Below are positions 16,501-46,515 of a stretch of DNA of 64,000 bases, in pieces. The stretch comes from an uncultured Candidatus Cenarchaeum sp. (lineage in GTDB: Archaea; Thermoproteota; Nitrososphaeria; Nitrososphaerales; Nitrosopumilaceae). The DNA lies in assembly GCA_958295735.1 (NCBI GenBank), contig OY282369.1:418161-482160 (forward strand), in the 5' to 3' direction. Under the pieces are notes generated by a model. It did no database searches. It was not told the DNA's origin and saw only the letters and a program-made list of their open reading frames with translations. The stretch's first letter is position 1. Each line of letters starts with the position of its first letter. Made by a program: the position numbers and the translations under genes.

Positions 16501-17681
16501 CCCGGGTCGGCCACGTATACCCGGCCCGAGCCGTCGACGGCCACGCCGTGCGGGTGGGCGAGCGGGGTGTGGATGTCGGCCACGTGGTTCCTGCCGGAGT
16601 CGAATATCCTGGTGCGGTTGTTGAGCGCGTCGGCCACGTACATCCGGCCCGAGCCGTCGACGGCCACGCCGTACGGGTTGGCGAACCCGGTGACGTTGGC
16701 CTCGTGGCGCCCGCCGGAGTCGAATACCAGGACGGTGCCGGTGGCCGGGTCGGCCACGTGTGCCCGGCCCGAGCCGTCGACGGCCACGCCGTACGGGCTG
16801 ACGAACGGGCCCCGGATGTCGTCCACGTGGTTCCTGCCGGAGTCGAACACGCGGACGAGCCTCAGGGCCGAGTCGGCCACGTATACCCGGCCCGAGCCGT
16901 CGACGGCCACGCCCGCCGGGTAGCCGAACGGGCCGGGCAGGTCGGCCACGTGTAGCAGTGTGGCGGAGTCGAAGGCCTGGACGCGGGCGTTTATCGAGTC
17001 GGCCACGTATATGATGCCCGAGGATGCATCGGCCGCCACGCCGGACGGGTAATGGAACTGGCCGTTGTCCGAGCCGCGGCCGCCGAACGTCCCTCCGGGC
17101 TGCAGCGTCGCGCGCAGGCTCACCGCGCCGGATGAGGCGTTGACGTCGGACGCGTCGAGGGTCGAGGCGTTCACGGCCCCGCCGAACTCCATGGTGAACG
17201 GCACGGCCCGCAGGGCGGTGGGGGAGGTCGCGCTGCTCGTGATCTCGACGGTCAGCGGGTTGCCGTCCGCGTGCGCGGGCGGCGCGCCTGCGAGGCAGCA
17301 CGCGAGGAGGGCGGCGGACGCGAGCAGGATCGCGGCGGGCGGCGGCGGGCGCCGGGGCGCGGAAGGCCTCGGGATCGCCGGCGGGGCCGTTCCGCGGGCG
17401 GCCCGGGCCCGGGCGGGCGGCCCGCGCCCGCCGCGGTTTCGGCCGCCGGCGGCCGCTCCCGGCGGCGCGGCGGCGGCCCCCGTTCCCCCCTCCCCGGCCC
17501 GCCCGGGGCCGCTTCCTTCCGCGGGCCGCGTCCCGCAGCGCCCGCCGGCGCGCCCGCGCGCCGGCCCGGGGGCGCGGGCGCGCTTCCCGCCGGCCCGCGC
17601 TCCGGCGATCGCGATGCCGGCCCCGGGCATCCCGCGCGCGGATGCCCGGGCGTCACCTCCCTGCCCCCGTTCCAGCAACAT
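1566..17681 (-). CDS. Giant secreted Ig-like / NHL beta-propeller / ligand-binding surface protein (~5,370 aa)
   Basis: Predicted extracellular protein of about 5,371 residues; function unknown. A hydrophobic stretch ending APPAHADG near residues 115-140 looks like a late signal peptide. Then come eight six-bladed NHL-type propellers (blades PxGVAVDGSSGxVYVADxxNxRVxVFD) near residues 195-448, 646-898, 1201-1481, 1780-2038, 2338-2595, 2796-3045, 3243-3505 and 3801-4051. Fourteen plain Ig-like modules (PTNATTIxFxVNFSEPV ... DGTIxVDIPAGAARD) separate them. Three or four other Ig-like modules follow, then a type-1 periplasmic-binding-protein-like domain near 4900-5230 (GITIISHSSA, IFRMEPGAAHLARAL). 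It ends VVNC with no membrane anchor. Many NxT/S sequons suggest N-glycosylation. A TATA-like segment at 17708-17716 favours the ATG at 17681; 17720 and 17630 are alternatives. Surface-layer adhesin or ligand sensor is inference. Confidence 0.85.
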   Translation of the reverse strand: MLLERGQGGDARASARGMPGAGIAIAGARAGGKRARAPGPARGRAGGRCGTRPAEGSGPGRAGEGGTGAAAAPPGAAAGGRNRGGRGPPARARAARGTAPPAIPRPSAPRRPPPPAAILLASAALLACCLAGAPPAHADGNPLTVEITSSATSPTALRAVPFTMEFGGAVNASTLDASDVNASSGAVSLRATLQPGGTFGGRGSDNGQFHYPSGVAADASSGIIYVADSINARVQAFDSATLLHVADLPGPFGYPAGVAVDGSGRVYVADSALRLVRVFDSGRNHVDDIRGPFVSPYGVAVDGSGRAHVADPATGTVLVFDSGGRHEANVTGFANPYGVAVDGSGRMYVADALNNRTRIFDSGRNHVADIHTPLAHPHGVAVDGSGRVYVADPGGDRVRVFDSTLESIADLPGPFRRPNGVAVDVSGSVYVADTGNHRVRAFDAAHAFDVHNPADGQNLTVGVPAGRVQGAAGNANEASNTVSISINRTAPVPVITAAQPGPTNATTINFVVDFGGPVTEFGLGDVAISGTASHNGVENFAGSGAAYAFVVTPTSDGTILVDIPAGAALYAAGHRSDAAARFSIARDVVPPVPVIDAALPGPTGLPAVPFTVKFGEAVNAATLDASDFDASSGTVRDLRIAPQQGGAFGGRGSGNGEFHYPSGVAADASSGMVYVADSMNSRVQAFDSSGVHVADIPGPFSYPMGVAVDGSSGTVYVADSTRGLVRVFDSGRSHVADMRGPFGSPSGVAVDASSGAVYVADTATDTVLVFDSALSHVANITGFANPYGVAVDGRSGEIYVADTSNGRIRIFDSALSHVADMRGPFGSPYGVAVDGSSGAVYVADASNDRVRIFDSAGSHVADLPGQFQRPNGVAVDGNSGAVYVADTAGHSVSVFDAAYAFDVHNPADRRTLTVSVPAGRVEDAAGNANEASNAEAIGIDRMVQFPVVAAAQSSPTNATTINFVVNFTHSVTGFAAANVTLSGNATHGGVANFSGSGAVYTFDVLPTSDGEIRVDIPAGAARNGTGGSPTAAADRFTIVSDRTPPHPAVTAEQSSPTGAATIAFTVNFTEPVRGFAAANVTLSGNATHGGVANFAAANATTYTFDVSPASDGDIRVDIPAGAARDDAGNPSIAAKQFNITYDSTPLIPRIAAAQPGPTSLRIIPFTLHFNASVNSSTLAASDIDADSGTVRDLRPAFPHAASFGGPGSGNGEFGGPTGIATDPTTGEIYVADIRNGRVQVFDSSMRHARNIAGPLVNPTGVAVDPSSGEVYVSDQGNHNVAVFDSAGRNIANITANATLPFFFPQGVAVDSGRTYVADWANKRVAIFDSARQHVADISGTLETTRDVAVDPSSGLIYVADEGSDHVAVFDSARRSIANITGPFSRPSGIALDPSSGYAYVADSDNDRVAVLDIAGRDIADTTGPPGDRAGGPLVPVVSGRSIADITASFGEPTDVAVDPSSGRVYVADVETGRVHAFDAAYAFGVADAPDGRTLTVSLPAGRVQGADGGKNVESNAAAVYVDRTAPVPAVNSTQSGRTNATTIDFVVNFSKPVRGFASGDVVLSGTAAHGGIANFAAASATAWTFDVSPESDGTIRVDIPEGAARDASGNPSEAAARFTIVSDRTPPVPAVTAEPPSPTNATTIAFTVNFSEPVRGFEHGDVTLSNSTAHGGVAGFSAANSTAWTFAVSPTSDGTILVRIADKAARDEAGNPSRAARFSIEYDAMPPVPALDAARPGPTNLTAVPFAAKFGEAMDASTLDASDFDVSSGEARNLRAMLQLNGTFGSSAAGNRTFNLPQGVAVDGISGRIYVADTSNETVQVFDSAWNHVRNLPGAPSLHYGVAVDAATGDVYVVGQSGSIRIFDPDGNPVNTISGGFLDPFDTPSGVAVDGSTGYIYVADTYNDRISILDSARDRVGDFRDSFSRPSGVAVDGSSGWMFVADTDNDRVRAYDPGRSSGHDLPGPFSRPSGVAVDSSSGRIYVADTDNHRVRVFDPSLDPVANFTGPFKQPYGVAVDGTSGRVYVADTHNHSIQAFDTAYAFDVHNPADGRNLTVSMKAGSARDAAGNANEASNAAEIYIDRTAPVPAVTAAQPNATNATTINFMVNFSEPVYGFDRNDVDLSGTAARGGIANFAAANATTWTFDVSPASDGTIRVDIPANASRDRAGNGNEAAARFTISYDTMFPIAEIASAQAGPTNATTISFTVNFSEPVYGFDRNDVDLSGTAARGGIADFSGGNSTYNFDVSPESDGTIQAYVPAGAARDLAGHPNPASARLSVTSDGTPPTATVATAQPGPTSLRAVPFTAKFSEAVNASTIDASDFDVSSGEARNLRTMLQLNGTFGGSGAGDGEFRNPTGVAVNGSGYVYVADADNRRIQVFDPALRHDDTIAGPPSEPSAVAVDGFTGTVYAAYADDRTIRVFNSDGSANGTINGPPGGPFVRPAGVAVDGSTGTIYVADTGNGTVRVFDSDRRHAGELPGPFVRPAGVAVDGSTGTIYVADAGNGTVRVFDSDRRHAGELPGPFVRPAGVAVDGSTGTIYVADAGSGAVLAFNSTLQRVATAAAALGNQSGVAVGGSGSVYAADPRGDRIQAFDTAYAFDVADPDDGRTLTVSLPAGRAEDAAGNGNEASNAASIRTDRTDPIPAVGAVQSSPTSAAAINFIVNFSEPVDEFDRNDVDLSGTAEHGGVANFSGGNSTYHFDVLPESEGTMLVNIPAGAARDDAGNPSRAATRFSIEYDATPPVPTVAPAQPGPSGLRAVPFTVKFSDVMDASTLAASDIVVSSGEVQNLRPALLHDATFGGPGSGGGEFRNPTGVAANASGHVYVADKINSRVQVFNRTGAYAADLPGPFSFPSGVAVDGSSGAVYVAMFNDKVRVFDSSGAYAADLPGPFHRPTGVAVDGSTGAVYVTDGNNGRVHAFNSTLHRVAGIDGQFNGPKGVAAGGPAGYVYVADTGNDIVQIFDHAGNTAGNITGLLTPHGVAVDGHSGAVYVADTSNNRVRAFDSSLARAADLPGSFDKPQGVAVGGPAGYVYVADSGNNQVQVFRPAYAFDVYDPADGQNLTVSLPAGRAEDAAGNENEASNAASIMIDRTGPVANVTAAQDSLTSATTINFTVNFSKPVEEFESGDIVVSGTADRGGIDNFSGADATWTFDVSPLSDGTVVVDIPAGVARDEAGNGNVAAARLVIVHHGTPPVPNITPALSGPASPDPAPFLVEFGEKMDASSLNASDFVVSSGEVRNLRPALLHDATFGGRGNASGQFEYPSDVAVDGHSGRVYVADTFNDRVQVFDSAGDYASNITGSLRNPSGVAVDASSGRVYVADTGKHRVLVFDPAGEHAGTIAGPPGDAFNNPSGVAVNGSGHVYVADTYKSRIQIFDPAGDYASNITGSFTHPSDVAVGGPAGSTYVPDKGKHRVLVFDPAGDYDYSITGLYAPSGVAVDGATGSVYVADTGNLRVQVFDSDGNHAGTVAGPFDNPTRVAVGGPSGFAYVADRNGHSIHAFRPAYAFDVYNPADGQTLTVSLPAGRATDAGGDPNNASNTASIHIDSTAPTVDVTAAQVSPTNATTIGFTVNFSEPVLGFAAANVTLSGNATHGGAANFAAANATTWTFDVSPESDGTIRVDIPAGAARDKAGNGNEAEQFSIEYDGTAPTANVTAAQPDPTNAATIGFTVNFSEPVEEFESGDIVVSGTAARGGIADFSGADATWTFDVSPTSDGTVVVDIPAGITRDEAGNGNEAAARLAITRHGTHPVPNITLAESGLPSPDAVPFLVEFGERMDASSLDASDFVVSSGTVQNLRPALLHDATFGGNGAGDGRFKQPTGVAVDGSSGRVYVVDKLNHRVQVFDSARDYAAELGPFSRPSGVAVDGSSGAVYVTDTFNHKTRVFDSSGAQAADLPGQFDQPFGVAVDGSTGAVYVTDKNNTRVHAFNSTLHRVAGIDGQFNGPKGVAAGGPAGYVYVADTGNYTVQIFDHAGNTAGNITGLTSPHGVAVDGHSGAVYVADTYNDSVRAFNSSLARAADLPGKFLRPEGVAAGGPAGYVYVADSQNNQVQAFRPAYAFDVHDPADGQDLTVSMAAGRARDAGGDTNAASNAASIYVTRTGPTVIVTAAQDSPTNAATISFTVNFSRPVPGFTAGDVVLSGIASSSDVVNFRTANDMTYEFDVSPESDGTILVDVPAGAARDEAGNGNHAAERFSIEYDGTAPTARVTAAQDSPTSAPTIGFTVNFSEPVLGFEPGDVKLSGTAPGIVENFAAAGDTAYAFGVSPESDGTILVDVPAGAARDRAGNGNEAAERFSIEYDGTAPTVNVTAAQDSPTSAPTIGFTVNFSEPVLGFEPGDVKLSGTAPGIVENFAAAGDTAYAFGVSPESPGIILVDVPAGAARDRAGNGNEAAERFSIEYGAAAPGTGLAVLSAAITGPQQATVRYNADADAAGSAYGPIEVGGANRTAELSGSGTDAHVLRFGGDAAARDATGAVTINPAAVTGPAGGSLGGGGAYRQPLADGQAPLLASAALDLTAGSNGLLTVTFDEAAAAAPDVRSLGGDITMRGAGGAAALSGGDIPSVASGRAGDNAFALGVSGAKRVELNGADLGSAAVALPRAFVHDAAGNPHAGEGGQPPVLLEYSPDPTPPVLAAATFNLAPAGGGAGRLTVTFDEAVTVPDVQSFEGTVEIRGRGGGGNSTLALSAGDAMSVESGRTGDRTFALLVPGQARAALGAAEFADPASTTVSLPSGFVSNGRAGYERERAPLEVARDAAGPSFLWAFVLNGSSVAVVYDEPVLTVPAHYGNITVGGVAAGGSGGGASGAAAFGSTVVVSWNANASTAASAGSAVGFDLSASVTDAFGNPIANPGPKSTGGEGGTRLDGKPHARAGVFSAGPGDPSAGAARLGAAAFNALSAGRGYAFYVSVSEHELPAGAAPAAAEAALRGAHMGGEGPSLYVGPASDIALGGMAGYASENGITIISHSSAARSLAVEGDAIFRMEPGAAHLARALALVVARGGYGAVVPVVQAGLHGPDYGLLEPLASDLSPLGIPVGPPVSFPGGGGGAAAAPIGAAVLEAAGNGTARSVAVVYMGSDAELAAMAGSVPEDGPIRERSVWFAAGGAGAGAGSGVAASPAVLADAAAVQLARDVRLSAVQFAVERNAITDYIDRIAAPRGPAASATPAYAAYEAVRVLGGALALAGGDPSLAGGNMAGAAALEGGPLGRTGMDGSGDLRLPVTYGAWSVSDTAAEWVRAPELLLGLTGCGIELEKSALALPPLTAGSTSRPARQTITNTGTVPLPAVSVSATDWTQFLGGVPIPDAHLPFSYTEMAVGLDGAPPRRADSAPLAAGTAIPGGTPPGGSVDVDFRINLEELDVLRADLISQTVTFVVNC
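4498..5097. repeat. Near-perfect 300-bp tandem duplication inside the giant gene
   Basis: Blocks 4498-4797 and 4798-5097 each encode one complete Ig-like module and differ at about six positions. A third, more diverged copy follows from 5098. This indicates recent unequal crossing-over or gene conversion. Confidence 0.9.
10061..10438. repeat. Three near-identical 126-bp NHL blade repeats
   Basis: The same blade-coding segment recurs with an exact 126-bp period (GTATAT at 10065, 10191 and 10317), part of the fifth propeller of the giant protein. It shows that blades, like Ig modules, are being duplicated or homogenised. Confidence 0.88.
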
Positions 17682-31537: not shown

Positions 31538-33214
31538 CTAGCGCCGCGCCTTCTTGGCCGCCGGCTTCTTGGCCGCCGGCTTCTTGTAAGAATTAATCCA
31601 CATGCTATCCCCGTCCTCGAAAATCTTGGCCGCCGGCTTCTTGGCCGCCGGCTTCTTGGCCGCCGGCTTCTTGGCCGCCGGCTTCTTGGCCGCCGGCTTC
31701 TTGGCCGCCGGCTTCTTGGCCGCCGGCTTCTTGGCCGCCGGCTTCTTGGCCGCCGGCTTCTTGGCCGCCGGCTTCTTGGCCGCCGGCTTCTTGGCCGCCG
31801 GCTTCTTGGCCGCCGGCTTCTTGGCCGCCGGCTTCTTGGCTACAGTTCCCCGCCCGGCAACGGCCTGCCTTGCTCCCGCGGGCGCCTTTTTCGGCCGCGG
31901 CGCCGCGGTTGCGGGTTTGGCGCTCCGCCGCCCGGCCTCCTTCCCCTTTGACGTCCCCCGTCCGGTGCGGCGGGCGGCCTTCTTCCTGGCGGCCTCCTCG
32001 CGCGCCGCCTGTTCGGCCGCCAGCCGTTCCCGCTCGGCCTTGCGCGCGGCCTTCTTCCTGGCGGCCTCCTCGCGCGCCGCCTGTTCGGCCGCCAGCCGTT
32101 CCCGCTCGGCCTTGCGGGCCGCAGCGGCGGCCTTCTTCCTGGCGGCCTCCTCGCGCGCCGCCTGTTCGGCCGCCAGCCGTACCCGCTCGGCCTTGCGCGC
32201 GGCCTTCTTCCGGGCGGCCTCCTCGCGCGCCGCCTGTTCGGCCGCCAGCCGTTCCCGCTCGGCCTTGCGGGCCGCGGCCTCCGATTTTTTCCGGGCGGCC
32301 TCCTCGCGCGCCGCCTGCTCGGCCGCCAGCCGTACCCGCTCGGCCTTGCGCGCGGCCTTCTTCCGGGCGGCCTCCTCGCGCGCCGCCTGCTCGGCCGCCA
32401 GCCGTACCCGCTCGGCCTCCCTGGCGGCGGCCTCCGCCTTTTTCCGGGCGGCCTCCTCGCGCGCCGCCTGCTCGGCCGCCAGCCGTACCCGCTCGGCCTC
32501 CCTGGCGGCGGCCTCCGCCTTTTTCCGGGCGGCCTCCTCGCGCGCCGCCTGCTCGGCCGCCAGCCGTACCCGCTCGGCCTCCCTGGCGGCGGCCGCCTCG
32601 GCGGCCTTGCGCCTCCGCTCCTCCTGCGCGGCCAGCCTGGCCTTCGCTTCCTCCAGTTCCGAGGCCGCCCCCTCCGCGCGCTTTTCCTCCGCGGCGGCGA
32701 ACTTTTCGGCCCGGCCCGCGGCCCGCGCGCCGTCCCTGGCCGACCTTTTCAGGCCGGGCAGCTCCGCCTCGGCCGCCTTGATGCTGGACGAGAGCGAGGC
32801 CTCCGAGGCGGCGTACTTTGACATGGCGGCGGCGAACTTTTTGGCCGCCTTTTCCCGCATTGCCAGCCCGTCTGCGATCTCCGCCGCCCTCTGCTCGGCC
32901 CCCCCGGCCGGCGCGCCGCCGTCCTGCCCGGCCTGCGCCTGCGTCGCCTTTTCCCGCGCAAGGGAGGCCTTGGCGGCCGCCACGAGGCGCTGCGCGCTGT
33001 CCAGCTGCGCCCTTTTTTGCGCGAGGGGCACGGCCATCTCCGCGAGATCCTCCCGCGCGGCCGCGAGGCTCCGCTCGGCCGACGCGAGGGCCGCCTCGGC
33101 CTCGCGGCCGATCGAGGAGGCCGCGGCCGCGTCGCGCCTGGCCTTCTGCGCGGAGGCCGCCGCGTCGCGCCCTTCGGCCCCGAGGCGTTCCACGGTCCTG
33201 GAAAGCGCTTCCAT
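31538..33214 (-). CDS. Coiled-coil protein with histone-H1-like AAKKP-repeat tail
   Basis: About 558 residues. Residues 1-190 are heptad-like coiled coil ([39 protein letters not shown]). Residues ~190-400 are nine imperfect repeats of [24 protein letters not shown]. The tail is a run of AAKKP pentapeptides resembling eukaryotic H1 or bacterial Hc1-like tails. The 15-bp tail repeat is interrupted near the end by 39 AT-richer bases (31588-31626) coding [13 protein letters not shown] in frame. Chromatin or nucleoid binding by the tail is inferred from composition; no enzyme domain is present. A weak TATA-like TTGTTAAGTT at 33237-33246 favours ATG 33214 over 33220. Confidence 0.82.
31553..31845. 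repeat. 15-bp tandem repeat array coding AAKKP, with a 39-bp non-repeat insert
   Basis: CTTGGCCGCCGGCTT units repeat from about 31553 to 31587 and from about 31625 to 31845 with almost no divergence. The intervening block at 31588-31626 is AT-richer and unrelated, and keeps the reading frame. Confidence 0.9.
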
Positions 33215-36061: not shown

Positions 36062-36300
36062 GGCGCCGCATCCCGCGGCGGCGCGGGCGCTTTATCGACT
36101 CGCCGATCTTGGCGCGCCGCATGGCGCGGCGGCGCGCGGGGCGCGGGCGCTTTATCGACTCGTCGATCCTGGCGCGCCGCATGGCGCGCCGCATGGCGCG
36201 GCGGCGCGCGGGGCGCGGGCGCTTTATCGACTCGTCGATCCTGGCGCGCCGCATGGCGCGCCGCATCCCGCGGCGGCGCGGGCGCTCCCTCGTGACGCTT
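36062..36300. repeat. 60-72-bp minisatellite with TTTATCGACTCG core
   Basis: GGCGCTTTATCGACTCG recurs at about 36087, 36147 and 36219, each followed by a CGATC that pairs with ATCGA to form a small palindrome, then GGCGCGCCGCATGGCGC spacers of varying number. It lies between convergent pgk and ctaB. From 36300 to 36538 only GC-rich, loosely repetitive sequence with no gene is seen. Confidence 0.85.
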
Positions 36301-38469: not shown

Positions 38470-38913
38470 TTGCGCGGCACCCTGTACTTGGACGCCGGGG
38501 TGGACGCGTCGCTCAGGGCGCACGCCGCGCGATGCGAGCCGGACGAGGCGTGCGCGCTGCTGCTGGGCAGGTCCCTGGACGGCGGCCGCGGGGCCGAGGT
38601 GCGGGAGGCGTTCCTGGCGCGCAACGCGGCCCGCTCGCCCCGCAGGTTCGAGGTGGACGGGGGCGACCTGCTGGATGCGTACGCGGAGGCGGGGCGCAGG
38701 GGCGTGGACGTGGCGGCGATATTCCACTCGCACCCGCTCTCGGAGGCGCGGCCGTCAGCCGCGGACGAGGAGTACATGCGGATCAACCCCGTCCCCTGGC
38801 TCATCTATTCCCCCGCGGAGGGGCGGTCCAGGGCGTGGCTGCTCGGCCCGGAGGGCGCCGAGGAGGCCGGCGTGGTCGTGCGGCGCGGCCCGTCCGGCCT
38901 TCGAGCCGCGTAA
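38470..38913 (+). CDS. JAMM/MPN+ metalloprotease (Rpn11-like)
   Basis: Zinc isopeptidase-type domain that in archaea removes ubiquitin-like modifiers such as SAMPs. The 147-residue single-domain protein has a complete JAMM motif: Glu26 (PDEACALLLG), His86-Ser-His88, and Asp99 in the H-x-H-x7-S-x2-D arrangement (HSHPLSEARPSAADEEYM). The TTG start at 38470 lies 3 bp after the upstream stop, implying co-transcription with the cupredoxin gene. No ubiquitin-like partner is seen in the window. Its stop abuts the minus-strand terminator of the paralogous gene array. Confidence 0.92.
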   Translation: MRGTLYLDAGVDASLRAHAARCEPDEACALLLGRSLDGGRGAEVREAFLARNAARSPRRFEVDGGDLLDAYAEAGRRGVDVAAIFHSHPLSEARPSAADEEYMRINPVPWLIYSPAEGRSRAWLLGPEGAEEAGVVVRRGPSGLRAA

Positions 38914-38969
38914 AAATGGGGGTGGGGGCGGCCGGAGCCGCCCCGGTTGTTCGCCGTTTGCACGGCGAA
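38912..38969 (-). terminator. Terminator hairpins at the end of the paralog array
   Basis: The hairpin GGGGCGGCCGGAGCCGCCCC (38925-38944) is followed on the minus strand by CCACCCCCATTTTTA, a classic stem plus T-run. A second stem, TTCGCCGT/ACGGCGAA, lies at 38950-38969. A copy of the first hairpin is at 38995-39014. The same design follows other array genes. Confidence 0.7.
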
Positions 38970-38988: not shown

Positions 38989-40065
38989 CTAGCGGGGGCG
39001 GCCGGAGCCGCCCCGGTTGTCCGCCGTCCCGGCCGATCCGCGCTGCCGCGCCGCGGTGCTGCCCGCCCGCCGGCGCGCGCTGCCCGCCCGAGGGCGGATC
39101 GTTCGGGGGGCCGGGCGGCTCGCCCGCCGGCGCGCCGCGCGCCGGGGCCGGCATCCGCGCGCCGCCGCGTCCCGGCGGGGGCAGGAGTGGCGAATTCCGG
39201 CCCGAGCCGGGCTTGCGGCGCCCCCGTCCCGGCGCCTGGCGCCGCCGCCTGCCCGCCGCCTGACCCGGATCCGCGCGCCCGGTTGCCTGCGGCGGCGCTG
39301 GCCCCCGCGGCGGGGCCGGTCGGGCAGCTCCGCCCGGCCGTGCCCGTCTTGGTGGCCCGCGGCGGATTCCGCTTCCGCGGTGGCGCTGCCCCGCTCGGGA
39401 GCGGCCCCGCCTTCCCGCGCGGGCCTCCCGCGCGGCGCGTCCATCCCGGCCTCGATCCCGGCGGGCCCCTCGCTCGCGCGCGCCTCGGCGGGGTCCGGCT
39501 CGGCCACGCCGGGGCCGTGCCCGCGCGTCACGTAGTCGGCCCCGGCGCCCGGCCGCGCCTGCAGTTCGTTCGGCTCGGCGAGATGCTTGGCGCTCGGGGC
39601 GTGGCCGGGCGCCCGCATCGCAAGGGCGGGCGCGATCTGCGCCTGCTGCTTGTCGCGCTCGGTCGTCGCGGCCGCCAGCCGCTCCCCCGTCGCGCCGGGC
39701 TTCTCGCCGGCTGGGCCGGGCGTCTCGAGCCCGGACCCGCGCCCGGCCGGGACCGCCTCGTGCTCGGCCCGCAGCGCATCCGTCTCGCCGCCGAATGCTC
39801 CCGCCGGATCGGTGCCCGCCCCCGGGCCGCGCGCCTGGTCGCCTCCGGCGTCCGCGGCGGCGCCGGGCCCCGCGGCCGCGGCGGCGCCGGCCCGCGCATC
39901 CGCCGCGGCGTCAGGCGCCGCCGGCTGCCCCGCCGGCCCCGGCTCGGCGGCGGCCTGGGCGGCCGCGCCGCCCGGGAGCAACAGCGCAACGGCGGCGGTT
40001 ACCGCGATCGCCGCCGCGGCCAGGCCGAGCAGCCTGGCCGCGGCGGTCGTCTTCGTGTCTCTCAT
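38989..40065 (-). CDS. Array paralog 1 (downstream-most): secreted protein, degenerate
   Basis: It starts MRDTKTTAAARLLGLAAAAIAV, the shared signal peptide with a likely cut after AAAQA. Instead of intact YGF/DLSEEE repeats it has recognisable but broken remnants (LRAEHEAVPAGRGSGLE for LQAEYDAVLAEYGFRFE, and LAEPNELQARPGAGAD for LAKLDELQARMEAEAD). The last ~120 residues are Arg/Ala/Gly rich and appear out of frame with the family's usual -DGE ending. The reading frame stays open because of high GC. I regard it as a decaying copy, although it keeps the full promoter element at 40086-40129. If expressed, it would be largely disordered and secreted. Confidence 0.55.
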   Translation of the reverse strand: MRDTKTTAAARLLGLAAAAIAVTAAVALLLPGGAAAQAAAEPGPAGQPAAPDAAADARAGAAAAAGPGAAADAGGDQARGPGAGTDPAGAFGGETDALRAEHEAVPAGRGSGLETPGPAGEKPGATGERLAAATTERDKQQAQIAPALAMRAPGHAPSAKHLAEPNELQARPGAGADYVTRGHGPGVAEPDPAEARASEGPAGIEAGMDAPRGRPAREGGAAPERGSATAEAESAAGHQDGHGRAELPDRPRRGGQRRRRQPGARIRVRRRAGGGARRRDGGAASPARAGIRHSCPRRDAAARGCRPRRAARRRASRPAPRTIRPRAGSARRRAGSTAARQRGSAGTADNRGGSGRPR

Positions 40066-40085
40066 TGCGCACGGTTGAGCCCGGT

Positions 40086-40129
40086 TGAAATAAAGGACAG
40101 GCACACATTGTGAGTTAACAAGGTTAGCT
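40086..40129 (-). promoter_or_regulatory. Conserved array promoter, copy 1
   Basis: A TATA-like GAAATAAAG at 40087-40095 lies about 26 bp before the ATG at 40065. Directly upstream of it is ACACATTGTG then AGTTAACAAGGTTAGC, the 26-bp element shared by all five array genes. Confidence 0.8.
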
Positions 40130-40393
40130 GCGCCGCGGCTCTTGTTCGCGCGCGGAAAACCGCCGCGGCGGGCGCCTGGTTCCTCCGCCCCGGCCGCATC
40201 CCCGCGTTCCGCCCCCCGCTCGCCCGCTCCCGCGCGGAGTTGCCCGGGGCGCGGCTGCTTGGGCGGTGGGGCGCCGGGGAGTCTGGAGCAGCGGGGCAGC
40301 GGCACGGCCCGGGCGGGCGCGGCCAGGGCGGCCTTCACGCTGTGGAAAAATAGGGGCGGGGGCGGGCGCGGCCAGGGCGGCCTTCACGCTGTG

Positions 40394-40428
40394 GAAAAAT
40401 AGGGGTGGGGGCGGCCGAAGCCGCCCCG
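40394..40428 (-). terminator. Terminator of array paralog 2
   Basis: Stem GGGGCGGCCGAAGCCGCCCC (40408-40427) directly after the TAA, followed on the minus strand by a CCCCTATTTTTCC tract. The T-run block plus about 40 bp upstream is duplicated at 40330-40362. Confidence 0.75.
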
Positions 40429-40429
40429 A

Positions 40430-42196
40430 TTACTCGTCGCCTTGGCCGATCTGCGCCGTCGTGCCGTAGTACTGCTCGTCCGCCGGATCGTACTGGTCGT
40501 ACTCCCCGTCGGCCGGCACGTCCTGCTCGTCGGCCGGGCCGCGTTGCCCGTCCGCGGGCGGGGCGTACTGCCCGCCAGCGGGCGGGGCGTACTGCCCGCC
40601 AGCGGGCGGGGCGTACTGCTCGTCGCCCATCGCGTACTGCTCGTCGCCCATCGCGTACTGCTCGTCGCCCATCGCGTACTGCCCGCCAGCGGGCGGAGCG
40701 CCCGCGGCGTTCGGCGGGCCGGGCGGCTCGCCCGTGGGCGCGCCGTGCCCGGCGGGGGCGGGCGTCGTGAATGCCTGCCCGTACTCGGCCGCGTCGTACT
40801 CTGGCTGCAGCGCCTCGGCGCCCGGTGCCGGCCCCTGCTCGGGGTCGGCCCCGGATCCGTGCGCCCCGATGCTTGCGGTGGCGTTGGCTTCCGCGGCGGC
40901 GCCGGCCCCCGCGGTGGCGTTGGCCCCCGCGGCGACCTGCTCTTCAGCGGAGGGCCCCGCCCGCGCGGTGGCGTTGCCGCCGCCCTGCTCGGGCGCGGCC
41001 TCGGCCTCGCGCGCGGGCGCTTCGTACAGCGCATCCATCTTGGCCGCGATCGCGGCCAGCCGCGCGTTCATGCGCGCCTCCTCCTCCTCGGAGAGGTCGG
41101 GCGTGGCTATGTCGAACCCGTACTCGCGCATTATGGCGTCTGCCTCTGCCTCCATCCGCGCCTGCAGCTCGTCCAGCTTGGCGAGCTGCCCGGCGGTCGG
41201 GACGAAGTCGGGCGCCAGCGTCTCGAGGTCCGGCAGGATCTGCGCCAGCTGCCTGTCGTACTTGGTCGTCAGGGCGGCCAGCCGCTCTTCCATCTCCGCG
41301 AGTTTTTCGTCGGTGAGGCTGGGCGCATCGAACCTGAACCCGTACTCGGCCAGGACCGCGTCGTACTCGGCCTGCAGCGCATCCATCTTGGCCGCGAATG
41401 CCTCCAGCTCGGGGTCGGAATCCGGGCCGTGCGCCCAGGCGCCTCCGGTGACTGCGGTGGCGTTGGCCCCCGCGGAAACGTTGGCGCCCGCGGTGGCGTT
41501 GGCCCCCGCGGAGACTCGCGCTTCCGCGGCGGGCCCGCGCCCGGCAGTGGTCGCGGATCCCGCGGTGTCGTTGGCCCCCGCGGTGGCGTTGCCGCCGCCC
41601 TGCTCGGGCGCGGCCTCGGCCTCACGCGCGGGCGCTCCGTACAGCGCATCCATCTTGGCCGCGATCGCGGCCAGCCGCGCGTTCATGCGCGCCTCCTCCT
41701 CCTCGGAGAGGTCGGGCGTGGCTATGTCGAACCCGTACTCGCGCATTATGGCGTCGGCCTCGGCGGCCATCCGCGCCTGCAGCGCGTCGATCTTGGCGAG
41801 CTGCCCCGCGCTCGGGGCGTGGCCGGGCGTCCCCGCCCCGGCGTCTGGCAGGATCTGCGCCATCCGCCGCTCGTACACCGACCCAAGGGCGCGGAGCCGC
41901 TTGTCCATCTCGGCCCACTGGTCCTCGGAGAGGTCGTCCGGCTCCACGAACCTGAACCCGTACTCGGCCAGGACCGCGTCGTACTCGGCCTGCAGCGCGT
42001 GCAGTCTGCCCCCCGCCGCGTCGGCCCCCGTCCGCGCCGCATCCGCCGTGTCGTTCAGCGCCTCCGGCCCCGGCTCGGCTGCGGCCTGGAAGGCCGCGCC
42101 GCCCTGGAGCAGCAGCGCAACGGCAAAGGTTGCGGCAATCGCTGCCGCGGCTAGGCCCGTGGGCCTGGCCGCGGCGGTTGTCTTCGTGTCTTTCAT
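40430..42196 (-). CDS. Array paralog 2: secreted helical-repeat protein, 588 aa
   Basis: Signal peptide (MKDTKTTAAARPTGLAAAAIAA, cut near residue 38), then two full modules near residues 65-195 and 270-410. Each module has two related units: AEYDAVLAEYGFRF..DLSEDQ/LTDEKxAEM...ERxxAQILPD, and ADAIMREYGFDIATPDLSEEEEARMNARLAAIAAKMDALY. The units are helix pairs capped by DLSEEE. Ala/Gly/Asn linkers with many N-A-T sequons suggest dense N-glycosylation. The tail has QYAMGDE and QYAPPAGG repeats and ends GQGDE. No membrane anchor and no known domain. It is the longest array member. Function unknown; surface or matrix protein is inference. Confidence 0.8.
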   Translation of the reverse strand: MKDTKTTAAARPTGLAAAAIAATFAVALLLQGGAAFQAAAEPGPEALNDTADAARTGADAAGGRLHALQAEYDAVLAEYGFRFVEPDDLSEDQWAEMDKRLRALGSVYERRMAQILPDAGAGTPGHAPSAGQLAKIDALQARMAAEADAIMREYGFDIATPDLSEEEEARMNARLAAIAAKMDALYGAPAREAEAAPEQGGGNATAGANDTAGSATTAGRGPAAEARVSAGANATAGANVSAGANATAVTGGAWAHGPDSDPELEAFAAKMDALQAEYDAVLAEYGFRFDAPSLTDEKLAEMEERLAALTTKYDRQLAQILPDLETLAPDFVPTAGQLAKLDELQARMEAEADAIMREYGFDIATPDLSEEEEARMNARLAAIAAKMDALYEAPAREAEAAPEQGGGNATARAGPSAEEQVAAGANATAGAGAAAEANATASIGAHGSGADPEQGPAPGAEALQPEYDAAEYGQAFTTPAPAGHGAPTGEPPGPPNAAGAPPAGGQYAMGDEQYAMGDEQYAMGDEQYAPPAGGQYAPPAGGQYAPPADGQRGPADEQDVPADGEYDQYDPADEQYYGTTAQIGQGDE

Positions 42197-42212
42197 TGCG
42201 TGTAGTATGGCC

Positions 42213-42260
42213 TACTTGAAATAAAGGGCTGGTACACATTGTGAGTTAACAAAGTTAGCC
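42213..42260 (-). promoter_or_regulatory. Conserved array promoter, copy 2
   Basis: TTGAAATAAAGGG TATA block about 26 bp before the ATG at 42196, preceded by ACACATTGTG then AGTTAACAAAGTTAGC. Confidence 0.8.
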
Positions 42261-42420
42261 GCGCCGCGGCCCCCGCCCGCGCGCGGGGGGCGCCGCGGCG
42301 GGAGCCGGGCCCGGCCGCCCCGGCCGCATCCCCGCGCTTCACTCCGGGCGAGCCCGCTCCCGCGCGGGGCGGCGGCCCGGGGGCGCCCGGGGCGGCGCGG
42401 CGCGCCCGGCCCCTGCGCCG

Positions 42421-42455
42421 TGGAAAAACGCGGGAGGGGCGGCCGGGGCCGCCGG
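42421..42455 (-). terminator. Terminator of array paralog 3
   Basis: Stem GGCGGCCGGGGCCGCC (42439-42454) just after the TGA, followed on the minus strand by CCTCCCGCGTTTTTCC. Confidence 0.7.
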
Positions 42456-42456
42456 G

Positions 42457-43821
42457 TCATTCGCCGTTCCTGCGGATCTGCTGCGCCGTCGCGCAGCCGC
42501 CCGGCTCGGCGGGGGCCCCGCCGTGCAGCGCATCCATCCTGTCCGCGATCGCGGCCAGCCGCTCGTTCATGCGCGCCTCCTCCCCCACGGAGAGGTCGGG
42601 CCTGGCTATGACGTACCCGTACCCGCGCATGATGTCGTCGGCCTCGGCTGCCAGCCGCGCGGACAGCCCGTCCAGCTTGGCGAGCAGCTCGGCGCTCGGG
42701 AAGTAGAAGATCGTCATCGTCTCGGAGACGGGCAGGACCTGCGCCATCCGCCGCTCGTATATGGACTCCAGGGCGGCCAGCCGCTCCTCCATCTCGGCAA
42801 ACTCCTCGGCTGCGAGGCGGGGCGCCTCGAACCAGAACCCGTACTCGGCCAGGACCGCGTCGTGCTCGGCCTGCAACGCGGCCGTCCCGGCAGCGAGTGC
42901 CGCCTCCCGCTCGGGGTCCGCCTCCCGGCCGTGCGCCTGGGCGCTGCCGGCATCGGCCCCACGGGCGGCGCCGCGGCCGCCCGGCTCGGGCGCCGGCGCG
43001 CCTTCCGGGCCCCAGAACAGCGCATCCATCTCGGCCTCGATCTCGGCGAGCCGCTCGCGCATGCACGCCTCGTCCTCCTCGGAGAGGTCCGGGTTGGCTA
43101 TGACGAACCCGTACCCGCGCATTATCTCTTCGGCCTCGGCGGCCATCCGCGCCTGCAGCTCGTCCAGGCTGGCGGGATGCCGGGTGCCCGGGGCGTGGTC
43201 GGGCAGCCTCGCCCCGGCGTCGGGCAGGATCGCCACCTGCCGCTCGTACTCCAGATTCAGGGCCAGCAGCCGCTTCCCCATCTCGGCCAACTCTTCCTCG
43301 GTGATGTCGTCGGGCCACTCTGACCTGAACCCGTACTCGGCCAGGACCGCGTCGTGTTCCTCCTGCAGCGCGCGCAGCTCGTCCTCGACCGCGTCGGGCA
43401 GCCCGCACTCGATGCTGCACTCGGGCTCGTCGCCCGGCAGCGCGCGCGGCTCGGCCCCTGCCGCGCCGGCCCCGGCCCCTGCCGCGCCGGCCCCGGCCCC
43501 TGCCGCGCCGGCCCCGGCCCCTGCCGCGCCGGCCCCGGCCCCTGCCGCGCCGGCCCCGGCCCCTGCCGCGCCGGCCCCGGCCCCTGCCGCGCCGGCCCCG
43601 GCCCCTGCCGCGCCGGCCCCGGCCCCTGCCGCGCCGGCCCCGGCCCCTGCCGCGCCGGCCCCGGCCCGCGCCGCATCCGCCGCGGCGCCGGGCGCCGCTG
43701 CCGGCCCCGGCTCGGCGGCGTCCAGGACGCCCGCGCCCCCGGGGACGGCGGCGGCTGCGGCGATCGCTGCCGCGGCGAGGCCCAAGAGCACGGCCGCGGC
43801 GGTCGGCTTCGCGTCCTTCAT
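42457..43821 (-). CDS. Array paralog 3: secreted helical-repeat protein with AGAGAAG linker
   Basis: 454 residues. Signal peptide MKDAKPTAAAVLLGLAAAAIAA with a cut near residue 32. Next comes an Ala/Gly linker of about eleven AGAGAAG heptads, then two modules with the family pattern (EEHDAVLAEYGFRSEWPDDITEEELAEM, then IMRGYGFVIANPDLSEEDEACMRERLAEIEAEMDALFWG; and AEHDAVLAEYGFWFEAPRLAAEEFAEM, then IMRGYGYVIARPDLSVGEEARMNERLAAI). It ends RRNGE. Two Cys (CSIECGLPD) just before the first module are unusual for the family. The start is the ATG at 43821, decided by the shared promoter. Role unknown. Confidence 0.8.
   Translation of the reverse strand: MKDAKPTAAAVLLGLAAAAIAAAAAVPGGAGVLDAAEPGPAAAPGAAADAARAGAGAAGAGAGAAGAGAGAAGAGAGAAGAGAGAAGAGAGAAGAGAGAAGAGAGAAGAGAGAAGAGAGAAGAEPRALPGDEPECSIECGLPDAVEDELRALQEEHDAVLAEYGFRSEWPDDITEEELAEMGKRLLALNLEYERQVAILPDAGARLPDHAPGTRHPASLDELQARMAAEAEEIMRGYGFVIANPDLSEEDEACMRERLAEIEAEMDALFWGPEGAPAPEPGGRGAARGADAGSAQAHGREADPEREAALAAGTAALQAEHDAVLAEYGFWFEAPRLAAEEFAEMEERLAALESIYERRMAQVLPVSETMTIFYFPSAELLAKLDGLSARLAAEADDIMRGYGYVIARPDLSVGEEARMNERLAAIADRMDALHGGAPAEPGGCATAQQIRRNGE
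43453..43665. repeat. 21-bp tandem repeat coding AGAGAAG
   Basis: About ten nearly identical copies of CGCCGGCCCCGGCCCCTGC plus two bases, within the linker of array paralog 3. It is perfectly in frame and so expands or contracts without breaking the gene. Confidence 0.85.
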
Positions 43822-43841
43822 CGCGGACTGCCGGGCCCCGT

Positions 43842-43885
43842 CGGAATAAAGGACCGGCACACATTGTGAGTTAACAAAGTTAGCC
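43842..43885 (-). promoter_or_regulatory. Conserved array promoter, copy 3
   Basis: GGAATAAAGGA TATA block about 26 bp before the ATG at 43821, preceded by ACACATTGTG then AGTTAACAAAGTTAGC. Confidence 0.8.
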
Positions 43886-43949
43886 GCCCCGCGGCCCCCG
43901 TTCGCGCGCGGAAGGCCGCGCGGCGCGGCCCGCCCGGCCCTCGCGCGGT

Positions 43950-43983
43950 TGAAAAATGGGGGAGGGCGGCCGAGGCCGCCCCG
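43950..43983 (-). terminator. Terminator of array paralog 4
   Basis: Stem GGGCGGCCGAGGCCGCCC beside the TGA at 43985-43987, followed on the minus strand by TCCCCCATTTTTCAACC. Confidence 0.72.
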
Positions 43984-43984
43984 G

Positions 43985-44152
43985 TCATTCGCCGTCCCGG
44001 AGGATCCGCCGCGGCGGCGCCGGCCCCCGCTCGCGGGAGGCCCGGACGGCCGCGCCGCCCGGGAGCGGCAGCGCGACGGCGGTGGTTTCGGCGATCGCTA
44101 CCGCGGCGAGGCCGAACAGCCTCGCCGCGGCGGTCGTCTTCGTGTCTCTCAT
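43985..44152 (-). CDS. Array paralog 4: mini-gene, signal peptide joined to C-terminal tag (55 aa)
   Basis: It opens MRDTKTTAAARLFGLAAVAIAE like its siblings and keeps the hydrophobic core and a possible cleavage region, but the whole repeat region is missing. After about 20 linker residues it ends RILRDGE, the family C-terminus, beside an intact terminator and behind an intact promoter. It looks like an internal deletion that fused the two conserved ends. After signal removal only a short peptide of about 20-25 residues would be released. Whether it is expressed or a remnant is unknown. Confidence 0.65.
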   Translation of the reverse strand: MRDTKTTAAARLFGLAAVAIAETTAVALPLPGGAAVRASRERGPAPPRRILRDGE

Positions 44153-44170
44153 TGCGCACGGTTGGGCCCG

Positions 44171-44215
44171 GTTGAAATAAAGGACCGGCACACATTGTGA
44201 GTTAACAAGGTTAGC
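44171..44215 (-). promoter_or_regulatory. Conserved array promoter, copy 4
   Basis: GAAATAAAGGA TATA block about 26 bp before the ATG at 44152, preceded by ACACATTGTG then AGTTAACAAGGTTAGC. It is fully preserved although the gene body is deleted. Confidence 0.8.
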
Positions 44216-44289
44216 CGCGCCGCGGCCGCGGGGCAGGCTGCGGCGCCGCTCCCGCGCGGATCCGCGGACGGGGGGCGCGGGGCGGGGGC

Positions 44290-44480
44290 GCGGGAAGCAT
44301 CCGGCGCGCGGCGCGGCGCGCTCGGGGAGCATCTGGCGCGCGAGGCGAACGACGGCGCGGCGCGGGAAGCATCCGGCGCGCGGCGCGGCGCGCTCGGGGA
44401 GCATCTGGCGCGCGAGGCGAACGACGGCGCGGCGCGGGAAGCATCCGGCGCGCGGCGCGGCGCGCTCGCCCGCGGATTCG
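44290..44480. repeat. 72-bp minisatellite, ~2.6 copies
   Basis: CGGGAAGCATCCGGCGCGCG recurs at 44291, 44363 and 44435 (72-bp period), with CGGGGAGCATCTGGCGCGCG in mid-unit. That mid-unit is itself a diverged half-repeat. It lies between array paralogs 4 and 5. Confidence 0.85.
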
Positions 44481-44577
44481 GGGCGGATGCGGGCGATCTG
44501 CAGGATGCGGGGCGCGGGTGCATCCCGCCCGCGCCCGCCCGCGGGGGCGAGGCGGCGGCCCCCACGGCCCTGGCGCG

Positions 44578-44614
44578 GTTGAAAAATGGGGGAGGGGCGG
44601 CCGATGCCGCCCCG
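44578..44614 (-). terminator. Terminator of array paralog 5
   Basis: Stem GGGGCGGCCGATGCCGCCCC beside the TGA at 44616-44618, followed on the minus strand by TCCCCCATTTTTCAACC. Confidence 0.75.
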
Positions 44615-44615
44615 G

Positions 44616-45783
44616 TCATTCGCCGTCGTACTGGTTCGGTTGCGCCGTCGCGCTGCGGTGCCGCGCGTCCGCCGGGGCGTGCTCCCCGTACAGCGCGTCC
44701 ATCCTGGCCTCGATCCCGGCGAGCCGCTCGTTCATGCGCGCCTCCTCCTCCTCGGAGAGGTCCGGCTCGCCTATGACGAACCCGTACCCGCGCATTATCT
44801 CGTCGGCCTCGGCGGCCATCCGCGCGGACAGCCCGTCCAGCTCGGCGAGCTGCTCGGAGGTCGGGACGTAGCCCGGCACCCACGTCGCGTAGGTGGGCAT
44901 GATCTGCGCCAGCCGCCGGTCGTACGTCGACATCATGGCTGCCAGCCGCTCGTCCATCTCGGCGTACTCCTCCTCGGAGAGGTCGGGCGACTCGAACACG
45001 AACCCGTACTCGGCCACGACCGCGTCGTATTCTGCCTGCAGCGCATCGATGCCAGCGGCGAATTCCGCCGCCCGCCCTGGGTCGGCATCCCGGCCGTGCG
45101 CCGGGGCGCCCCCGGTGCCCGCTATCGCGCTCGACACCGCGCCGGCTCCCGCCCCCGCGGCAGCGCTGCCGCCGCCCCGTTCGGGCGGGGCCTCGCCTTC
45201 CCTCGCGGGCGCTCCCGTCAGCGCGTCCATCCTGGCCTCGATCCCGGCGAGCCGCTCGTTCATGCGCGCCTCCTCCTCCCCGGAGAGGTCCGGCCTGGCT
45301 ATGTCGAACCCGTACCCGCGCATTATCTCGTCGGCCTCGGCGGCCATCCGCGCCACCATCTCGTCAAGCTTGGCGAGCTGCTCCGCGCTCGGGGCGTAGC
45401 CCGGCAGCATCCCGGCATCGGGCAGGATCAGCGCCAGCCGCTTCTCGTACTCCGACCCCAGGGCCCGCAGCCGCCCGTCCATCTCGGCGAGCGCCTCGTC
45501 GGTGATGCCGCCGGGCGGCTCGAACTTGAACCCGTACTCGGCCACGACCGCGTCGTACTCGGCCTGCAGCGCGCGCAGCTTGCCCCCCGCCGCGTCGGCC
45601 CCCGCCCGCGTCGCATCCGCCGAGGCGTCCGGCGCCGCCGGCTGCCCCGCAGGACCCCGCTCGGAGGCGGCCTGGACGGCCGTGCCCCCCAGGGACAGCA
45701 GCGCGACTGCGGCGGTTACCGCGATCGCTGCCGCGGCGAGGCCCAAGAGCCTCGCCGCGGCGGTTGTCTTTGTGTCCTTCATT
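44616..45783 (-). CDS. Array paralog 5 (upstream-most): secreted helical-repeat protein, 389-aa class
   Basis: 388 residues. Signal peptide MKDTKTTAAARLLGLAAAAIAV with a cut after AVQA near residue 38. It has two clean modules: AEYDAVVAEYGFKFEPPGGITDEALAEM, then DAGMLPGYAPSAEQLAKLDEM and ADEIMRGYGFDIARPDLSGEEEARMNERLAGIEARMDALTG; the second reads AEYDAVVAEYGFVFESPDLSEEEYAEM, then IMRGYGFVIGEPDLSEEEEARMNERLAGIEARMDALYG. The linker is Gly/Ala rich and the end is NQYDGE. This is the best-preserved copy and the most compact statement of the family consensus. No catalytic motif; helix-pair repeat, extracellular. A structural or binding role is inference. Confidence 0.82.
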
Positions 45784-45802
45784 GCGAACTGTTGGGCGCG
45801 CT

Positions 45803-45847
45803 TGGAATAAAGGGCTGGTACACATTGTGAGTTAACAAAGTTAGCCG
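45803..45847 (-). promoter_or_regulatory. Conserved array promoter, copy 5
   Basis: GGAATAAAGGG TATA block about 26 bp before the ATG at 45783, preceded by ACACATTGTG then AGTTAACAAAGTTAGC. Confidence 0.8.
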
Positions 45848-45996
45848 CCCCGCGGCCCCGTCCCGGGGGCGGGACGCGGCATCCGCCTCGCCTTTTGGCG
45901 ATTAGCGGCGCTGGCCGCCCCGCGGCCGTGTTCCAGGGGCGGAAAACCGCCGCGCCGCGAACCTTGAAATAAATATGCCCGCCCCCGCGCGGCGGC

Positions 45997-46254: not shown

Positions 46255-46337
46255 CGCTTTCCTCCGACGACGTTTTTCTTTTCCTCCCGCGCAGGTGGCG
46301 CCGCCGGCGCCCGCGCGCGGGCCCGCCGCGGCAAGGC

Positions 46338-46515
46338 AGGGCCCGGGAGCGCGCCGGATCGCCCGCGCGCGCTTCCTCCTCCCTCGTTCAACATCCCCCT
46401 TGTTGAGCAGGGCCCGGGAGCGCGCCGGATCGCCCGCGCGCGCTTCCTCCTCCCTCGTTCAACATCCCCCTTGTTGAGCAGGGCCCGGGAGCGCGCCGGA
46501 TCGCCCGCGCGCGGG
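46338..46515. repeat. 71-bp minisatellite with CAACA...TGTTG hairpin
   Basis: AGGGCCCGGGAGCGCGCCGG recurs at 46338, 46409 and 46480 (71-bp period). Each full unit includes TTCAACATCCCCCTTGTTGA, a stem-loop. It lies between convergent genes. Confidence 0.88.

Follow-up and report, generated by a model that had tools for sequence, protein, structure and literature searches.

Five neighbouring minus-strand gene cassettes, A to E, encoding secreted-type proteins, were identified in a window of 64,000 nucleotides (nt) from an uncultured Candidatus Cenarchaeum sp., an organism for which ammonia oxidation would be expected from its relatives. The window (G000:C1:418161-482160, G+C content 72%) belongs to a genome, G000, assembled as a single contig of 3,166,131 bases. 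The intact proteins are built of a helical repeat, referred to here as the YGF module, and the favoured reading, to which a probability of about 0.36 is given, is that this module acts in extracytoplasmic recognition, was once or more coupled to a sensor, and has been uncoupled and expanded in the window; the steps leading from the module to its partners are ones that we infer. Three of the five genes look intact, while B looks like a signal-peptide remnant and E like a decayed relic:

44616-45782, minus strand: gene A, looks intact; 388 residues, with putative signal peptide, two YGF modules, linker and short tail
43985-44152, minus strand: gene B, remnant; 55 residues, with putative signal peptide and tail only
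42457-43821, minus strand: gene C, looks intact; 454 residues, with putative signal peptide, AGAGAAG-repeat linker and two YGF modules
40430-42196, minus strand: gene D, looks intact; 588 residues, with putative signal peptide, two YGF modules, N-sequon-rich linkers and QYAMGDE/QYAPPAGG tail
38989-40065, minus strand: gene E, decayed copy; 358 residues, with the putative signal peptide kept, the module motifs lost and the later part unalignable

The original prediction, made from the letters of the window, had described five same-strand paralogues with a near-identical signal peptide, four of them full or partial members and one reduced to signal peptide and tail. The shared start was confirmed, as a six-frame translation yields five matches to M[RK]D[AT]K in the window, every one at the minus-strand start of an array gene, and the signal peptides of A, B, C, D and E are near-identical. 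The division into members holds for B, whereas E is better described as a relic. Each of the five proteins contains a single hydrophobic stretch, within residues 4-38, and no further membrane segment, which supports Sec-type secretion, as had been proposed. A local tblastn search of protein A against 9.5 kilobases (kb) of the window gave whole-length alignments with D (~7e-149), C (~1e-112) and E (~1e-54), and the eight matches of protein A in its own genome all fall within the array. Judged from these alignments, the paralogy is far above chance.

The repeated unit reads helix-YGF-(P)L[ST]-helix, and the two distinct unit types distinguished by the original prediction align as this single one. 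In an alignment of 28 rows (alignment A2), G26 is invariant and F27 almost invariant. Two units, with their YGF motifs 74-75 residues apart, constitute one module of ~135 residues, of which A, C and D hold two each:

45204-45608, minus strand: YGF module A1 (alignment A5)
44676-45080, minus strand: YGF module A2, the modelled copy, predicted local distance difference test (pLDDT) 90.4
43003-43407, minus strand: YGF module C1
42511-42915, minus strand: YGF module C2
41627-42034, minus strand: YGF module D1
41012-41416, minus strand: YGF module D2

A profile made from alignment A2 recovers the 12 units of A, C and D with E-values of 7e-23 to 1.3e-17, by construction since these rows belong to the profile, and does not match proteins E and B. 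An AlphaFold2 model of the module (mean pLDDT 90.4, predicted template-modelling score 0.67), based on nine rows, six from the window and three from locus L088 of a related genome, contains helices at residues 2-24, 36-60, 75-98 and 110-133 and strands at 28-30 and 102-104. Because the model has no other strands, these two are taken to pair, and the chain runs out through helix, strand and helix and back likewise. The model is thus an antiparallel hairpin of helices in which the two YGF stretches form a two-stranded clasp at the centre. Alpha/beta coiled coils reportedly form fibres by way of residues inserted into the coiled coil, which differs from the single antiparallel hairpin with its clasp predicted here. 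The likeness to that work (PMC4786415) lies in a coiled coil broken by short strands.

Within the libraries searched, no known domain claims the module. None of the five proteins reached the cut-off of any Pfam or NCBIfam model, the best PHROGs match among nine modules scanned had an E-value of 0.0017, and searches of PDB by sequence gave at best E = 1.2 for protein A and E = 0.0077 for the module profile (a helical part of BRAF), with none below 0.001. The best Foldseek hit of the module model (E = 0.26) stands among rows that are generic helical hairpins, and the best VIA-align score was Z = 8.0 over 59 residues, where helical models may reach ~13 without meaning. DUF3150 was discarded for D as below threshold (19.0 against a cut-off of 24.9). 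For the secreted protein of the related genome G161, EAD9 (27.2 against 25, E = 3.3e-6) and Unstab_antitox (24.6 against 23.3, E = 2.5e-5) were taken as chance acidic-helix matches, because they cover part of the helices and neither passes for the window proteins. The available parts of the literature, including PMC5847659, PMC12181767 and PMC9868349, do not describe a YGF family, no search having been aimed at the motif itself. The expectation of no recognised family therefore stands as far as it was tested: the YGF module is new to the libraries searched. Its kind, that of secreted helical repeat proteins, is ordinary, but the link to a sensor described below was unexpected and has partial support.

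In four related genomes (G018, G161, G044 and G060), the sensor of a membrane histidine kinase was found to contain one YGF module as a discrete inserted block. In the three of these kinases scanned against Pfam, HisKA and HATPase_c exceed the cut-off and dCache_1 (PF02743) falls below it. Aligned with five kinases that lack it, the module of ~130 residues occupies the position of a short loop in the sensor's outer part. In 12 kinases from 11 genomes, of which two kinases also belong to those five, the sides of the insert lie 6-81 nt apart, versus ~440 nt with the module. The insert was modelled, at pLDDT 84-97, as four helices resembling those of the window module. In comparison with Cache-type histidine kinases, the YGF proteins of the window are soluble and lack a kinase portion, and related kinases elsewhere do without the module.

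In G018 and G161, the genes that follow the kinase encode, in order, a stand-alone receiver, the product of a third gene, and a secreted YGF protein of four units. The third gene is conserved and has no Pfam match. Among its 43 matches, 19 were inspected, in addition to G161: loci L020 and L057 have YGF frames, and the 17 other loci (L097 and L108-L123; 18 matches) have no YGF frame at an hmmsearch E-value of 0.01 or below.

In the favoured reading, the YGF module would serve for protein recognition outside the cytoplasm, each copy pairing with others of its kind. Because module and locus are shared, the secreted four-unit protein of G018 and G161 would most likely act as the soluble partner of the Cache-like sensor, setting it off or adjusting its response. 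In the lineage of the window, the secreted gene would have been multiplied as promoter-to-terminator cassettes, at a place where the gene order differs from that of a congener. The products are probably a co-expressed set of soluble secreted proteins, whose targets outside the cell would probably be one another or the envelope. The length-variable linkers, those of D probably glycosylated, would serve as spacers.

Several observations weigh against this reading. Outside the insert, the sensor of the YGF kinases models poorly (block pLDDT 27-57). The ~10 kb of G044 and 3.4 kb of G060 lying 3′ of the kinase contain neither receiver, third gene nor YGF protein, the 5′ side being cut by the contig end so that linkage is readable on the 3′ side only; in both genomes the receiver and the third gene adjoin elsewhere, without a kinase of this type. 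The kinase sensors of G018 and G161 are 70% identical and may reflect a single event. In G006 a long YGF protein occurs but no YGF kinase, while G060 (72% complete) has a YGF kinase and no secreted YGF protein was found in it. Finally, the HisKA kinase of the window's own genome has no YGF match.

This kinase, the only HisKA match of that genome, is located at L097 (G000:C1:2353000-2372900), where it is followed by a receiver-like frame and the third gene, a type of locus seen in many genomes of the family, with a kinase sensor part that differs between genomes. Its AGKNRML stretch may mark a sensor resembling those of PilJ/NarX, and the secreted protein beyond the third gene is, from its motifs, presumably a trypsin-type protease. 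Since this locus has another sensor and no YGF match, sensor coupling in the form seen in the relatives is, on the sequence, absent from the window's organism. It was also observed that L097 carries the same stretch twice, at 11554-13200 and 14962-16245 (translation TIGQNRP...FFRALAARAKGTPKATINC). One copy lies directly upstream of a secreted-looking protein, perhaps representing another family with a shared upstream cassette.

A bolder version, which we regard as improbable, is that the YGF module would be a novel code for recognition outside the cell in ammonia-oxidising-type archaea, through which a soluble secreted protein and a kinase sensor communicate. An archaeal two-component system would then have a proteinaceous ligand or co-sensor, and in the lineage of the window the soluble partner would have been freed from the sensor, multiplied and diversified into a co-expressed set that faces neighbours, a host or viruses.

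Relatives of the module are sparse. Protein A alone matched two of 40 other genomes, G018 (E = 5.9e-8) and G006 (1.8e-5), and the profile of alignment A2, which includes units of both, then matched G161 (2.4e-18) and G044 (6.6e-9). In the family sample, the profile matched six of 200 genomes, namely the window's own, G006, G018, G044, G060 and G161 (5/199 others); it matched four of 300 in the order, all of the same family, and five of 398 in the phylum, one marginally, these three samples overlapping. The marginal match of G446 (34 positions, E = 3.9e-4 per genome, 398 searched) was treated as chance. A scan of genome contigs with a single protein found no relative, a second one with alignment A4 yielded one named locus, L088 of G018, and two queries of viral contigs confirmed no relative among 136 and 403 candidate stretches; the genes might nevertheless stem from a virus or mobile element.

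Secreted YGF proteins are encoded in G018 (JANQNN010000035.1, Nitrosopumilaceae archaeon PL23a_bin.18), G161, G006 and G044, where the gene runs off the contig end (L059). Like those of the window, they contain several units per protein, and a hydrophobic N-terminus is found in G018 and G006 and, by eye, in G161 and G044. Unlike in the window, one secreted YGF gene was seen per genome and no cassette array, and the YGFxxPxLT turn is two residues shorter. The secreted-looking protein of G006 (L021, 5217-7288) has a regular YGF period of 40 residues, its gene being split over two frames. A coral-skeleton study names a Porites lutea metagenome-assembled genome PL23a_bin.125 (PMC9868349), and because of the shared PL23a prefix, G018 is probably a coral-skeleton archaeon.

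No such array was seen in the relatives, whose comparison the original prediction had called for; the module in sensor kinases could not be seen from the window. The congener G001, the nearest genome found and of the same genus (2,045,086 bases), has no match to the YGF profile, and no YGF gene was seen at its copy of either array flank. One of these flanks comprises a JAB gene and a gene judged cupredoxin-like by eye, the other a DUF2024 gene with a pyrophosphatase. Their copies in G001 lie ~560 kb apart, hence the gene order has changed at the array.

The array copies share signals on both sides of the coding sequence. The 75 bases 5′ of the start align closely in all five copies and include an element of 27 base pairs (bp), TAACNTTGTTAACTCACAATGTGTNCC, which has five occurrences genome-wide when up to three mismatches are allowed, all within the array and all without mismatch, whereas its reversed control has none:

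45817-45843, minus strand: 27-bp upstream element of A
44187-44213, minus strand: 27-bp upstream element of B
43856-43882, minus strand: 27-bp upstream element of C
42231-42257, minus strand: 27-bp upstream element of D
40100-40126, minus strand: 27-bp upstream element of E

A CTTTATT box ends ~24 nt 5′ of the ATG in each copy, a position that would be compatible with an archaeal TATA box driving a leaderless transcript, and the upstream element would be a promoter. Downstream, TTTTT starts 28-30 nt past the stop in A to D and 72 nt past the stop of the open frame in E. A GC hairpin before this T run, with up to two mismatches, occurs five times in the window (once each for A, B and D, twice for E) against 0.31 expected:

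44582-44613, minus strand: hairpin then TTTTT, 3′ of A
43952-43982, minus strand: hairpin then TTTTT, 3′ of B
42424-42454, minus strand: related GC-rich stretch and TTTTT, 3′ of C, more divergent and unmatched by the pattern at up to two mismatches
40395-40427, minus strand: hairpin then TTTTT, 3′ of D
38912-38944, minus strand: hairpin and TTTTT, 3′ of E

A scan for bacterial-type promoters found nothing, and a terminator scan found six candidates against 2.7 expected, the array hairpins, whose T run begins more than two bases past the stem, not being among them. Because each copy has an upstream element, a CTTTATT box, and a GC hairpin or related stretch with a T run, the array looks like five self-contained cassettes.

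The linkers differ between the paralogues. In C and D, their lengths vary by units of tandem DNA repeats:

43452-43674, minus strand: AGAGAAG linker repeat of C, 21 bp, 10.6 copies, 99% match
40545-40682, minus strand: tail repeats of D, comprising 24 bp with 3.1 copies (40545-40619) and 21 bp with 3.4 copies at 100% match (40611-40682)

D also has shorter 18-bp arrays, and for the central linker of A no repeat array was listed by Tandem Repeats Finder. The claim of linkers made of in-frame tandem repeats, and with it that of conserved ends and plastic middles, thus applies to C and D and not to A. Similarly, linkers rich in NAT sequons are a feature of D only, which has nine N-x-S/T sequons (shuffle mean 0.8, largest 5). 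Between modules of the window, protein identity is 52-73%, and the Nei-Gojobori ratio of nonsynonymous to synonymous substitution (dN/dS) ranges from 0.76 to 2.15 over 15 module pairs. Values near or above 1 were rejected as proof of positive selection, because the third-position G+C of A, C and D (0.91-0.92) throttles synonymous change. Differences between G and C, pooled over 15 overlapping module pairs and so not independent, amount to 67/662 at four-fold sites, 62/714 at second positions and 91/1354 at first positions. The modules are weakly constrained, and G-C exchange at second positions is no higher than at four-fold sites, which gives no proof of positive selection.

These data bear on the proposal, made in the original prediction, that paralogues with length-variable linkers form a surface-diversification locus varying what host cells or viruses meet. 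The recent-looking linker repeats, the weak constraint on the modules, the sequons restricted to one paralogue and the patchy relatives, one of them a metagenome-assembled genome with a sample prefix used in the coral-skeleton study, are all in its favour. However, as each copy has its own upstream element with an inferred promoter role, a single expression site with silent cassettes is not what is seen; the composition of third positions depresses synonymous change; and one genome of the species was compared. Surface diversification hence appears possible but doubtful, and it stays unproven.

The proteins could also be passive structural spacers, coiled-coil rods that set envelope distances and have no specific partner, as the helical rod model and the regular array of the G006 protein suggest. 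Such a role would hardly explain why YGF is conserved, nor why a single module was inserted into a sensor, in two genomes beside a secreted copy, and is considered unlikely.

Spy, CpxP and ZraP are small proteins folded as helical hairpins, and feedback on a sensor kinase is known for some of them. An envelope chaperone or metal buffer working in this way is suggested by the unit of the relatives, which reads LTxxQ after YGFxxP, by the acidic tails with some His of the secreted proteins of G018 and G161, and by the kinase neighbour in these two genomes. The likeness to CpxP, Spy and ZraP with CpxA or ZraS is that of a gene for a small extracytoplasmic helical protein near a sensor kinase, the relation to the sensor being a proposal here. 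However, Pfam LTXXQ (PF07813) reaches, for protein A only, 8.9 bits (cut-off 24.3; E = 3.3) and is unlisted at E-values up to 5 for the secreted proteins of G018, G161 and G044; CnrX (2y3h_C) appears in Foldseek with E = 2.4 and a TM score of 0.15 only; and A, C and D carry only 3-6 His and 0-4 Cys. No Spy/CpxP fold was found among the best 50 Foldseek and 50 VIA rows, an absence that is no evidence. The YGF proteins thus stand outside Pfam LTXXQ, and their module also occurs within the sensor; we know of no partner module inside the sensor itself for Cpx or Zra. This explanation is judged decidedly unlikely.

Copy E resembles A over its first ~235 residues only and has lost the YGF and LSEEE motifs. 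Its second-codon-position G+C is 0.749 (0.835 in its second part), versus 0.535-0.591 in A, C and D. At sites identical in A, C and D, E carries 39/84 changes from A/T to G/C and 17/302 from G/C to A/T. When A, C and D were each compared with the other two, the corresponding values were 10/100, 19/109 and 11/103 for A/T to G/C and 16/343, 21/358 and 21/348 for G/C to A/T. Since its share of A/T to G/C change far exceeds that of the intact copies, the decay of E is strongly one-sided, towards G/C. Copy E may be regarded as a naturally occurring record of GC-biased substitution, given the high G+C of the window. The G+C of the relatives' stretches ranges from 34-35% (G006, G018) to 61-71% (G044, G060). 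That the whole family is decaying, recombination-multiplied with little current function and now being lost, is very improbable. In its favour, two of the five copies look dead, and the congener G001 and 194 of the 200 family genomes searched lack the module. Against it, open frames and motifs persist in A, C and D together with a codon-position composition like that of genes, and none of the five copies has lost the upstream element.

Other repeats were noted in the window. Tandem repeats at 36110-36280, 44287-44468 and 46336-46513 have periods of 72, 72 and 71 bp, 2.4-2.5 copies and 97-100% match, and their consensus sequences differ. A long run of ~126-bp and ~300-bp tandem repeats at 4479-16952 perhaps corresponds, by its spacing, to beta-propeller-type repeat genes, and a stretch at 31624-32597 combines a 15-bp repeat of 14.5 copies (100%) with 81/153-bp tandem repeats.

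To our knowledge, little is known of the signals sensed by archaeal sensor kinases. The presence of the YGF module both in a kinase sensor and in an adjoining secreted protein is a directly testable lead to such a signal. In the window, a new secreted family whose cassettes were multiplied whole, and of which one copy decays while its neighbours stay intact, would represent a compact case of the gain and loss of envelope proteins in a GC-rich archaeon.

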